This document shows positions 41,227 to 46,035 of a DNA stretch of 64,000 nt, piece by piece. Numbering within the stretch: the first letter of the stretch is position 1; the number at the start of each line of letters is the position of its first letter. The position numbers were made by a program, and so were the translations under genes. This DNA comes from Brachyspira murdochii DSM 12563. Its GTDB lineage: Bacteria > Spirochaetota > Brachyspiria > Brachyspirales > Brachyspiraceae. Location of the stretch: positions 1,884,919 to 1,948,918 of the forward strand of contig NC_014150.1 of NCBI RefSeq assembly GCF_000092845.1, given 5' to 3'. A model generated the notes under the pieces. The model was not told the origin of the DNA. It did not search any database and saw only the letters and a program-made list of their open reading frames with translations.

Positions 41227-41255
41227 TTGACAATAGATATAATTTTGTATACTAT
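41227..41255 (+). promoter_or_regulatory. Promoter of the phoH operon
   Basis: TTGACA (41227-41232) followed by TATACT (41248-41253, 15-nt spacer) or the overlapping TACTAT (17-nt spacer). It lies about 50 nt before the proposed ATT start. Confidence 0.5.
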
Positions 41256-41303
41256 TATCTATATAATTTTATAAATATAATTTTGTTTTAAGGATTTTAT
41301 ATA

Positions 41304-42257
41304 ATTAATAAGAAAATATCAGGAAATAAGATTAAATTTAAGGATAATGAATCCTTTATTTCTATATGCGGGATTAATGATAAAAACCTAGAGGTACTTG
41401 AAGATAAATTTAATGTTTCAATATACCCAAAGGGAAATGAATTAACCATAGAAGGCGATTCAAATAAAATAGAAGACACTCTTAAAGTTCTTTATATATT
41501 AAAAGATCTGTATAATTCATCTAATGAAATAACTATTCAGAAGGTTATAAGTATAGCAGATAATATTGAAAGCGGTAAAGAAAATCAATTAATATCAATG
41601 CGTATAAAGCTGCCGTATCTAGGAAGAAATATACAAATGAAAACAATTTCTCAGGGAGAATATTTATATAAAATGCAAAGAAGCGATATTGTATTTGCTT
41701 CCGGAGCTGCTGGTACGGGTAAGACATTTTTATCGGTTGCTTATGCTATAAATTTACTTTCTGAGGGAAAAGTAGAGCGTATAATTATAACTAGACCTGT
41801 AGTTGAGGCAGGCGAGAGTTTGGGATATTTGCCCGGAGATTTTAAAGAGAAGATATCTCCATATATGCGTCCTGTTTACGATGCTTTGTATAGTCTTTTA
41901 TCAAGCGATATTATATTAAGATATACTGAAGAAGGAAAAATCGAAGTAGCTCCTTTGGCATATATGAGAGGAAGAACTTTGAGCAAGGCTTTTATAATAC
42001 TCGATGAAGCACAAAACACCACAGTTTCTCAGATGAAAATGTTTTTAAGCAGAATAGGAGAAAAATCAAAAGCTGTTATAACTGGAGATGTGTCTCAAAG
42101 CGATTTACCAAGCAATGTAGAATCTGGTCTTGAGAATGCTTTGAAAATTTTAAAAGGAATAAAGGGAATAAGTTTTCACCATTTTGATAAAAAAGATGTG
42201 ATAAGACATCATTTAGTTTCTGAGATTTTGGCTGCATATGATAATGCAGGCAAATAA
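41304..42257 (+). CDS. phoH: PhoH-family ATPase, apparently with ATT (or ATA) start
   Basis: The ATPase domain has Walker A GAAGTGKT, the TRPVVEAGESLGYLPG segment, Walker B IILDEAQN and TGDVSQSDLP, as in PhoH. The nearest ATG (41598) would give 219 residues and lose the family's N-terminal KH-like domain. The frame stays open upstream to a TAA at 41289, and encodes a fitting N-terminus (FISICGINDKNLEVLEDKF, then PKGNELTIEG). Between 41292 and 41598 it has no ATG, GTG or TTG. AAGGA (41290-41294) lies 9 nt before ATT at 41304 and 6 nt before ATA at 41301. From ATT the protein is 317 residues, the usual PhoH length. It leads the phoH-pgpH-ybeY-tlyC operon. Confidence 0.85.
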   Translation: MNKKISGNKIKFKDNESFISICGINDKNLEVLEDKFNVSIYPKGNELTIEGDSNKIEDTLKVLYILKDLYNSSNEITIQKVISIADNIESGKENQLISMRIKLPYLGRNIQMKTISQGEYLYKMQRSDIVFASGAAGTGKTFLSVAYAINLLSEGKVERIIITRPVVEAGESLGYLPGDFKEKISPYMRPVYDALYSLLSSDIILRYTEEGKIEVAPLAYMRGRTLSKAFIILDEAQNTTVSQMKMFLSRIGEKSKAVITGDVSQSDLPSNVESGLENALKILKGIKGISFHHFDKKDVIRHHLVSEILAAYDNAGK

Positions 42258-42291: not shown

Positions 42292-44763
42292 ATGAATACA
42301 AATAAAAAAATAATGAAATCAGTTATAAATAAAACTCCAAATATAGAAAGAGTTTTTCAATTAGTAATAGCTATAGTATTATATATTTTTACTTTATTTT
42401 TGGTTTTTCCCACATATATGCAGAAAGCTGCAGTACCTTCAGTAGGCGATATAGTAAAAGAGCCTCTGATAGTAAAACGCAATGTAAGATACGAAAATAA
42501 AGAAGAAACACAAAAACTTGTATATTATGCACAGGCAGCTGTAGCTCCTATATTTGATATGCCCAAAAATATAGAGTATGAAACCATATCCAAAATAAGC
42601 AATATGTTTTCATTTATGAGAATATCTCATGATAATAATGTTCCTATTGATGATATGTATAATGAGTTTTTATCGCTTCATAACGAGCCTATAAATAAAT
42701 CAGTATTTTCAAATGCTGTTGTTAATGAGCTTAATGTAGGATATGAATCTAAAATAATAGAAACTATTAAAGAACTATTCAGTGTAGGAGTCATATCTAG
42801 GGGAAATTTAAGTTCGGATACTTTGAATCTTATACTAGATAACGGAGTATTTATATACAGGTATGATGATTATTTAGTAGAAGAAAGAGTTCTTCCAAGA
42901 AACAGAGTATTTTTTTTGGAAGATTTAAGAATGGAGCTTCCTTCTATTGTAGGGGCAAAATACAGAAATCTTAATATAAATCATATTAATACAATATCAT
43001 CTATAGTTAATGCTTTTTTGAGAGATAATCTTATATATAATTCTGTGCGTACAAAAGACAGGATGAATGATGTTGTCTCTTCAATACCTCCGGTTTATAA
43101 TATGATAAAAAAGGGATTTGTGATTTTAAATGTAGGGGAGAGAGTAACAGAAGAAAAAGCTGAGCTTATAAGAAATCTATTTGGTAATAACTTTGAAAAT
43201 TATAATGTTTCTATTTTTACAGGTCAGGCTTTATTTATACTTCTGCTTTTTGCTTTTATTGGCTTTATTATACTTAAATACAAAATACCTTTTTATATAA
43301 GTTTTAAAAACTATATTCTGTTTTGTATAGAGTATATTGTTATTGTAAGTATTACATATATATTTTATAATCATATATCATATAAATTATTGGATACATA
43401 TATACCTTTTTATATTTACACATTCATTCCTATGTTTGGTATGATAAACTCATTATTAGGAGCTAGAAGGGGGATATCATCTATAGTTACTTTAGGTATT
43501 ACGCTTCTTGCTGCAAATATTGCTCAGGCTAATATATTTGAAATATCAGCATTATTTCTTATATCAATATTAGCTTCTATACTGTCAAGGAAAATTAACA
43601 GCAGATATGCTCTTTTATGGATAGGTTTTATTATAGGCGTATATTTGAGTTTGATGTCATTAGTGGGAATGCTGCTTAATAATGAAATTAATATCACTTA
43701 TTTAACTTTTATTTTCTCATTTGTAAGCGGATTTACTCAGGCTATACTTGTAATGATATTTCTTCCTATATGCGAATATATGCTTGAAACAGCTACTATA
43801 TTCAGACTTCAGGAGCTTTCTGACTTGAATAATCCTCTTCTTAGAAAACTTCAGATGAATGCCCCCGGTACTTATCACCATTCTATCAGCATGGCTAATC
43901 TTGTAGAGACTATAGCGGAAGAGATAGGAGAGGATGCAAGGCTTGCATGTGTATCAGCATATTATCATGATATAGGTAAAATGGAAAATCCGCTCTACTA
44001 TATAGAAAACTCTAATGTCAATGAAAACAGACATAAAAAATTAAAACCTACACTTTCTGCTTCTATAGTAAAGGCTCATGTACGTTTGGGGGTTGAGATA
44101 GCTAAAAAATACAGACTTCCTAAAGAGGTTATTGCTGCTATAAAAGAACATCATGGTACAAGTTTGATAAAATATTTTTATGTAGAGGCTTTAAAAGAAA
44201 ATCCTGATGTTGATATTAATTTATTTACTTATCCCGGACCGCGTCCTCAGTCTAAGATTACAGCTATATTGATGATTCTTGATTCTATAGAGGCAGCAAG
44301 CAGAACTCTGGATTCTCCTAAAAGAGAGGATTTGGAAATGCTTATAGAAAATATTGTCGATGATAAAATGGCGCATGGAGAACTTAATGACAGCGGACTT
44401 ACTTTAAAAGATATAGAAATTATTAAGAGAATATCATTCCAAAAAATTATAGTTTCTTTGCATGAGAGAATAAAATATCCGGAGCTTCCGGAAGAGAAAA
44501 ATGAAAAGATTCATTTAGAAGAAGATGAAAAGAGTGATAAAGATGTTAAAGATAATAAAAAGCAGAGTTCAAAAGAAAATAAGGATAATACTAAAGAAAG
44601 CAGCGATGCTGTAAAAAAAGTAAAAAAAGAAACGGAAAAGATAAAAGATAAAATAAAAGAGAAAATAGCAAAAAAAACTCCTATAAAACATAAAAATGAA
44701 AAAGATGAAGTAAAATATAATACAAAAGAAAATAAAGAAAATAAGGATGCTGTAAAAAAATAA
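42292..44763 (+). CDS. pgpH: 7TM-HD family phosphohydrolase (PgpH/YqfF-like)
   Basis: An 823-residue membrane protein. One N-terminal helix (~22-42) is followed by an extracytoplasmic 7TMR-HDED-type domain to ~305. About seven helices span 310-500, and a cytoplasmic HD domain covers ~525-700 (YHHSISMANLVE, YYHDIGKMENP, IKEHHGT). The tail of ~80 residues is Lys/Glu-rich and disordered. Members such as PgpH of Listeria hydrolyse cyclic di-AMP. The order phoH-pgpH-ybeY is widespread in bacteria. Its stop overlaps the ybeY start by one base (TAATG). Confidence 0.92.
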   Translation: MNTNKKIMKSVINKTPNIERVFQLVIAIVLYIFTLFLVFPTYMQKAAVPSVGDIVKEPLIVKRNVRYENKEETQKLVYYAQAAVAPIFDMPKNIEYETISKISNMFSFMRISHDNNVPIDDMYNEFLSLHNEPINKSVFSNAVVNELNVGYESKIIETIKELFSVGVISRGNLSSDTLNLILDNGVFIYRYDDYLVEERVLPRNRVFFLEDLRMELPSIVGAKYRNLNINHINTISSIVNAFLRDNLIYNSVRTKDRMNDVVSSIPPVYNMIKKGFVILNVGERVTEEKAELIRNLFGNNFENYNVSIFTGQALFILLLFAFIGFIILKYKIPFYISFKNYILFCIEYIVIVSITYIFYNHISYKLLDTYIPFYIYTFIPMFGMINSLLGARRGISSIVTLGITLLAANIAQANIFEISALFLISILASILSRKINSRYALLWIGFIIGVYLSLMSLVGMLLNNEINITYLTFIFSFVSGFTQAILVMIFLPICEYMLETATIFRLQELSDLNNPLLRKLQMNAPGTYHHSISMANLVETIAEEIGEDARLACVSAYYHDIGKMENPLYYIENSNVNENRHKKLKPTLSASIVKAHVRLGVEIAKKYRLPKEVIAAIKEHHGTSLIKYFYVEALKENPDVDINLFTYPGPRPQSKITAILMILDSIEAASRTLDSPKREDLEMLIENIVDDKMAHGELNDSGLTLKDIEIIKRISFQKIIVSLHERIKYPELPEEKNEKIHLEEDEKSDKDVKDNKKQSSKENKDNTKESSDAVKKVKKETEKIKDKIKEKIAKKTPIKHKNEKDEVKYNTKENKENKDAVKK

Positions 44764-45200
44764 TGAAAGTTAATGTGTTTAATGAAACAGATTATGATAT
44801 TAATATAAAATACTATAAATATTTTTTATACAATTCATTAATTGTATCTGAAGTAAAAGGAGACGTCAATCTATTATTTTGTGATGATGAATATATAAAA
44901 AAACTTAATAATGACTTTAGAAATAAAAATAAAGCTACTGATGTATTAACATTTCCTATGGGAGATGATGATGAAGGAGGCGATATTGTTATTTCTTATG
45001 AGTGGGTAAAAAACAGATACAGCGAAGATAAAATAAAAAAAACTGTATTAAAACTTATTATACATTCTATACTCCATCTTAAGGGCATACATCATAATTA
45101 CAGTAAAAAATCGCTTATGGAAAATAATGAAAAGATGAAAGAATTATATTATAAGGCAGTAAAAAATATAAAAGATAATAGAAAAAAACATAACTTGTAA
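44763..45200 (+). CDS. ybeY: Endoribonuclease/rRNA maturation factor YbeY
   Basis: A 145-residue metal-dependent factor in 16S 3'-end maturation and ribosome quality control. It has NKATDVLTFPMGDD followed by the metal site HSILHLKGIHH, the family's H-x3-H-x5-H. The start overlaps the pgpH stop in TAATG, so translation is coupled. tlyC follows 13 nt later. Length is normal, with a basic tail. Confidence 0.93.
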   Translation: MKVNVFNETDYDINIKYYKYFLYNSLIVSEVKGDVNLLFCDDEYIKKLNNDFRNKNKATDVLTFPMGDDDEGGDIVISYEWVKNRYSEDKIKKTVLKLIIHSILHLKGIHHNYSKKSLMENNEKMKELYYKAVKNIKDNRKKHNL

Positions 45201-45213
45201 GGATATATAAAAA

Positions 45214-46035
45214 ATGTCAATAAAAAAATTAATATCTAAAATAACTAAAAAAAAGGATAATGACACTGAAAAAAATAATTATATAAATTTATCAGCATTA
45301 ACAGAACCTGAGAGAGAAATCATAATAAATACTATAGAATTAAAATCAAAAAGTGTAAGAGAGATAATGGTGCCAAGAGTAGATGTTATTATGCTTCCTA
45401 TAGAGTCATCTTATGATAAAGTGATAAAGGCTTTTAATAAAGACAGAAACTCAAGAATACCTATATATAAAGACGGTATAGATGATATAATAGGGGTTTT
45501 GTATGTAAAAGATTTGATAGATACCGATGATAAAAACTTTTCTCTCAAAAAGATTCTTCATAAGCCTCTGTTTGTGCCAATATCAATATCTTTAATGGAG
45601 CTTTTAAAAAACTTTAGAGAGAAGCAGATTCATATTGCCATGGTAGTAGATGAATACGGCGGTTTTTCTGGAATAGTATCTATGGAAGATGTTCTTGAAC
45701 AGATTATAGGAGATATTAGAGATGAGTATGATGAAGAAGATGAAGAGGTAAAAAGCAATGATGACGGTACTTATCTTGTAGATGCTAGAGCAAGAATCGA
45801 TGACTTTAATAAGTACGGCATACTTCCGCCTATACCAGATGATGAGGCAGATACTGTAGGCGGATTTTTATTTTCATATTTGGGAAGGCTTCCTAAAAGA
45901 AATGAGGCTATAGAGTATAAGGATTATTCTTTTACTGTTGTAGGAAAAAGCGGAAATATTGTTACTAAAATAAGAATAGAAAAACTTAAAAAAGATAATA
46001 AAGATAATGATGAAAAGAATAAAGATAATGAATGA
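45214..46035 (+). CDS. tlyC: CBS-domain haemolysin-family protein TlyC (CorC-like)
   Basis: A 273-residue cytoplasmic protein with two CBS domains (about 55-175: REIMVPRVDVIML and MVVDEYGGFSGIVSMEDVLE). A CorC_HlyC domain follows (about 190-260: ADTVGGFLFSYLGRLPK). There is no DUF21 membrane part. It matches what is known as TlyC in Brachyspira hyodysenteriae, named for haemolysis in E. coli. The CorC family is tied to Mg/Co efflux and membrane homeostasis, so the name may mislead. It is the last gene of the phoH operon; the C-terminus is Lys/Asp/Asn-rich. Confidence 0.9.
   Translation: MSIKKLISKITKKKDNDTEKNNYINLSALTEPEREIIINTIELKSKSVREIMVPRVDVIMLPIESSYDKVIKAFNKDRNSRIPIYKDGIDDIIGVLYVKDLIDTDDKNFSLKKILHKPLFVPISISLMELLKNFREKQIHIAMVVDEYGGFSGIVSMEDVLEQIIGDIRDEYDEEDEEVKSNDDGTYLVDARARIDDFNKYGILPPIPDDEADTVGGFLFSYLGRLPKRNEAIEYKDYSFTVVGKSGNIVTKIRIEKLKKDNKDNDEKNKDNE

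Follow-up and report, generated by a model that had tools for sequence, protein, structure and literature searches.

A probable AUU start codon for phoH, conserved as AUU or AUA among the Brachyspira orthologues

Where does translation of phoH begin in Brachyspira murdochii? In the 64,000-nucleotide stretch of DNA analysed here (the window), which belongs to a genome of 3,241,804 bases assembled as one contig, the open frame of the gene begins at 41292, straight after an in-frame TAA (41289-41291), and 98 codons separate that stop from the first in-frame ATG at 41598. No ATG, GTG or TTG occurs in the phoH frame between the two, as an earlier note on this DNA had observed; that note had proposed a start at ATT or ATA behind a good AAGGA, and the motif does lie nine nucleotides ahead of the ATT. 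Our reading, which we hold to be very probable, is that phoH starts at the AUU at 41304 with the Shine-Dalgarno sequence AAGGA nine bases upstream, that this codon is decoded by ordinary initiator tRNA-fMet, and that the weak start is ancestral to the genus. The relevant features of the window are as follows.

41227-41255, forward strand: predicted phoH promoter, TTGACA, 17 nt, TACTAT (TATACTAT), part of the evidence being the TTGACAATA... element found upstream of phoH in 24 genomes
41290-41294, forward strand: Shine-Dalgarno sequence AAGGA, overlapping the in-frame TAA at 41289-41291
41301-41303, forward strand: rival start codon ATA, rejected as not conserved in relatives
41304-41306, forward strand: start codon ATT, assigned by comparison of 24 Brachyspira genomes and outgroups
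41304-42257, forward strand: phoH, 317 codons and stop (PF02562, E 3.4e-88)
41328-41522, forward strand: predicted N-terminal KH type I domain of PhoH, model residues 9-73 (AlphaFold2, Foldseek)
41598-41600, forward strand: first in-frame ATG, an internal methionine codon that is not a Met codon in the deep relative L026

Most of the 24 genomes carry a near-identical TTGACAATA... element, which has diverged further in the deepest lineage, L026. No marked RNA structure was found in the phoH leader (z -1.5).

Were the ATG at 41598 the only start used, the product would be a 219-residue ATPase core without a KH domain, and the upstream frame would be untranslated. This ATG is the first canonical start and the sole offer of a gene finder limited to ATG, GTG and TTG, and the solved PhoH2 structure (3b85) covers the core only. 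The upstream codons, however, score as coding and evolve under constraint. Across relatives, the upstream codons have a pN of about 0.02-0.2 versus a pS of 0.2-0.8; where divergence is sufficient, codons 6-102 have a pN of about 0.1-0.2 and a pS of about 0.5-0.8, and the dN/dS of the upstream codons is about 0.1 against most such relatives, to which the 90 bases upstream are only 30-51% identical. By hexamer score the 5' extension is one of the strongest in the part of the genome that was sampled. The 98 codons upstream of ATG 41598 are judged from these measures to be real coding sequence under purifying selection.

The residues that they specify align with the N-termini of ATG-started outgroup PhoH proteins and are predicted to fold as a KH domain, which begins eight residues past the AUU, is wholly encoded 5' of the first ATG, and is lost if translation begins there. 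With 30 aligned PhoH sequences, AlphaFold2 predicted with high confidence a strand (9-11), two helices (15-22 and 24-36), two strands (39-43 and 46-50) and a helix (53-73), the beta-alpha-alpha-beta-beta-alpha order of KH type I, and the domain modelled alone agrees with this model (mean pLDDT 88). Its Foldseek matches are KH type I proteins (Krr1, Dim2/Pno1, archaeal exosome, vigilin and PCBP KH domains); their E-values are modest, 0.004-0.1, yet they are uniform in kind and many are small-subunit rRNA maturation proteins. Purifying selection, model and Foldseek search thus agree with the earlier suggestion that about 98 upstream residues fit a KH-like N-terminal domain. ATG 41598 is moreover not conserved in L026, and its exclusive use is highly improbable. 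The PhoH ATPase domain (PF02562), the N-terminal KH domain and the presence of ybeY in the predicted operon together mark the gene as a member of the PhoH/YbeZ family.

The comparison that defines the start itself drew on a PhoH query that matched 25 of 26 genomes of the genus; the match in one of them (G001) is only a distant PhoH2-type protein, leaving 24 orthologues, with Brachyspira innocens ATCC 29796 (97% identical) and Brachyspira sp. G79 (95%) the nearest named relatives by PhoH. The codon at the 41304 site is ATT in 17 of the 24 and ATA in seven (five of the B. pilosicoli group, L007 and L026, the last two aligning with a one-codon shift), and it is never ATG. An SD-like AAGGA, AAAGGA, GAGGA or AAGGG precedes the codon at normal spacing in every orthologue. 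None of the 24 has a usable ATG, GTG or TTG upstream; the in-frame TTG of L006 and L009 is only 2 nt past the SD. The earlier note had asked whether ATT or ATA is conserved in other Brachyspira, and its proposal of a non-AUG start is strongly supported by finding the SD and the ATT/ATA in 24 of 24 genomes.

Because all 24 orthologues share this arrangement, a local sequencing error is ruled out. A broader form of the argument, that an error, a frameshift or a pseudogene hides an ATG near 41300, or that an upstream ORF frameshifts into phoH, can appeal to the frameshifted genes of this genome and to the programmed frameshift in prfB, but the agreement of 24 assemblies excludes the error that the earlier note had itself feared near 41300, and in the window no ATG occurs in any frame from the predicted -10 element to the ATT at 41304. 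The chance that such an event accounts for the locus is negligible.

A start one codon earlier, at ATA 41301, or a mixture of ATA and ATT, would fall within the SD spacing range of other genes in the genome. Codon 41301, however, is AAA, TTT, TAT, ACA, AAG or AAT in several relatives, whereas the codon after it is invariably ATT or ATA, and in B. alvinipulli (L036/L008) the only codons between an in-frame TGA and the ATT are AAT and AAA. It is also codon 41304, not 41301, that matches the ATG of the closest outgroups. Since codon 41301 varies while ATT/ATA is kept at 41304, the start is assigned to the latter; of the two codons left open in the earlier note the ATT stands and the ATA falls, and a role for ATA 41301, alone or in a mixture, is distinctly improbable.

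In the outgroups phoH begins with a canonical codon, mostly ATG, which in L048, L051 and L055 occupies the exact position of 41304 and in two genomes of the same order lies a few codons further downstream. The start at 41304, AUU or AUA throughout Brachyspira, is read as an ancestral feature of the genus. The gene itself seems to have been lost repeatedly in the family: G001 (L306) lacks phoH but keeps pgpH-ybeY-tlyC intact, and three further genomes of the family (G026-G028) gave no match to phoH at E 1e-60.

Among the tRNAs examined there was no sign of a special initiator; the only species for Met and Ile were CAU-anticodon Met-type and GAU Ile tRNAs. Nor is the gene for IF3 an obvious parallel within the genus. 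An ATG start is available for infC in all 25 Brachyspira genomes where infC was found. In 22 of the 25 the arrangement is GAGGT, 6 nt, ATA-ATG, with the ATA at the more usual SD distance, and an AUA start is possible; in L113, L135 and L137 the ATG is the sole near start choice. Since infC starts with ATG, or possibly with the ATA just before it, Brachyspira does not clearly show the signature of classical IF3 feedback. AUU starts on infC and pcnB are known from other bacteria, as the earlier note had said, but the analogy with infC is loose here.

How unusual is such a start in this genome? Among sampled genes with an SD, 828 start with ATG, 60 with TTG and 33 with GTG, and AUU is therefore exceptional. 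A screen for non-AUG starts covered about 1.66 Mb (51%) of the genome and detects only cases in which the next canonical start is far downstream, so that more may exist; from this half of the genome only phoH and one MarR-family gene survived.

G000:C1:299461-299877 (L154 19461-19877), forward strand: MarR-family gene with an ATT start (PF01047, E 1.5e-11)

The leader of the MarR-family gene reads AAGGAG, 6 nt, ATT, and a start at its first ATG would remove most of the DNA-binding domain. Across 22 orthologues the start codon is ATT in 19, ATC in one and ATT one codon earlier in one (L200), with TTG-ATA in the deep lineage. With ATT conserved in a second gene too, these AUU starts form a small conserved set and are not an artefact of sequencing. 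Just upstream of the MarR-family gene lies an inverted repeat, ATGCTATCAT...ATGATAGCAT, with six T behind it, which may be either an operator or the terminator of the preceding metallo-beta-lactamase-fold gene.

Most other high scorers of the screen turned out to be genes broken by frameshifts or nonsense codons, antisense frames, or the programmed frameshift of prfB. The frameshifted genes include those for a Clp ATPase (G000:C1:2130379-2130759, reverse strand), a TPR protein (2006350-2006733, forward strand) and a chemotaxis receptor (1062557-1063279, reverse strand), which are either real pseudogenes or assembly errors. A thioredoxin-like ORF (G000:C1:2328629-2328925, reverse strand) reads MSLKDLFFGGNCG-TGA-GPAINLFGEEE... 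behind an SD and ATG; its TGA possibly encodes selenocysteine (NCGU), or else the gene is broken. A pattern scan for AAGGAG-N5-9-ATTAA returned 33 sites, the same number as the reversed-pattern control, and added no convincing gene, while a leader similarity at C1:1138549 proved to be only a shared promoter and SD before an ATG gene.

Use of the AUU/AUA start leaves the question of whether it is maintained by selection. It may be a neutral relic, in which an ancestor lost its ATG, the need for expression is low, and the operon is not regulated through the start codon. G makes up 6% of fourfold third positions of phoH and is present in 37 of 58 fourfold-degenerate columns across 22 genomes; a neutral third base would lack G about one third of the time, and the absence of ATG alone is therefore weak proof, no more than suggestive of selection when taken by itself. 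The gene is also dispensable enough to have been lost in G001 and to escape detection in three more of the family's genomes. Against neutrality, synonymous changes have come close to saturating across the genus, and even so neither Brachyspira phoH nor the MarR gene has regained AUG, which lies a single mutation away. The case for selection is strengthened by the expectation that a start codon will not be neutral: in poor medium, the AUU/AUA sites tested in S. aureus reached about 10% of the output obtained with AUG, a cost of about 90% (PMC13009471). A neutral relic nonetheless has a substantial chance of being correct, somewhat short of even.

What an AUU start could mean depends on the genes that follow phoH, which are all on the forward strand.

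42292-44763, forward strand: pgpH-type HD/7TM gene with an ATG start and its own SD (ORF)
44763-45200, forward strand: ybeY, ATG start, one-base overlap with the pgpH stop (PF02130 match in the genome)
45214-46035, forward strand: tlyC/CorC-type CBS-domain gene, ATG start (identity from the earlier note and sequence)

The order phoH-pgpH-ybeY-tlyC, found in the window and in L307, strongly supports the operon that had been proposed, and phoH is predicted to head it. The one-base overlap makes translational coupling possible between pgpH and ybeY, but pgpH is itself equipped with an SD and an ATG. In E. coli, YbeY is bound by YbeZ, and 30S subunits carry more IF3 when YbeY is lost (PMC5101352). 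The KH domain of PhoH (41328-41522) is closest to those of Krr1 and Dim2/Pno1, eukaryotic and archaeal proteins of small-subunit rRNA maturation; this likeness and the partnership with YbeY hint that these proteins share a function at the small-subunit rRNA 3' end.

tRNA-fMet initiates poorly at AUU or AUA, and IF3 rejects such initiation, as known from infC and pcnB (PMC9764084, PMC13009471). By this precedent, the AUU of phoH would keep output low and IF3-sensitive. PhoH, and perhaps the products of translationally coupled genes downstream, is probably held at a low level by the weak start; to judge from E. coli and S. aureus, output should increase when initiating 30S subunits are short of IF3. 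That the cell uses the start to control the operon, coupling it to IF3, as the earlier note had suggested, or to 30S maturation, is speculative. The coupling to IF3 is made plausible by the discrimination of IF3 against AUU and AUA in E. coli and by the low output of such starts in S. aureus, but there is no indication of a varying IF3 level in Brachyspira. In one such scheme the phoH-ybeY operon would sense 30S quality by negative feedback through start-codon choice: unprocessed 30S subunits would accumulate and hold IF3, initiating subunits would then discriminate less against AUU, PhoH (and perhaps YbeY) would increase, and maturation of the 16S 3' end would be restored. This scheme agrees with the operon and the E. 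coli findings, but we consider it unlikely.

Several known systems resemble the Brachyspira case in part. The AUU/AUA start of infC in E. coli and S. aureus is likewise a rare start behind a good SD, conserved within a lineage, but infC encodes the discriminating factor itself and is thereby autoregulated, whereas phoH does not. The AUU of E. coli pcnB (Binns and Masters 2002, in PMC9764084) similarly limits an enzyme of RNA metabolism, although in a different gene and behind a poor ribosome-binding site where that of phoH is good. In S. aureus and relatives, cvfC1 (AUU) and ccpN (AUA) likewise have conserved starts with a strong SD, the former also heading an operon (PMC13009471); these are different genes in a different phylum, and the use and weakness of their starts were demonstrated by Ribo-Ret and reporters, whereas the Brachyspira start is predicted from sequence. 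The E. coli ybeZ-ybeY operon (PMC5101352) also joins a phoH-family gene to ybeY, and differs from that of Brachyspira, where pgpH lies between the two and phoH has the AUU/AUA start.

Very few natural AUU/AUA starts are established in bacteria. They are already known from infC, pcnB, cvfC1 and ccpN, and phoH is a new gene for such a start; no report of one in Brachyspira or in any phoH was found in the literature, most subscription journals lying outside the search. Gene finders limited to ATG, GTG and TTG cannot call these starts and at phoH would drop the whole RNA-binding domain. The MarR example suggests that Brachyspira holds a small, listable set of such genes. A genus-wide AUU/AUA start on an operon containing ybeY would provide a natural test case for start-codon discrimination as a link between ribosome quality and the expression of maturation factors.
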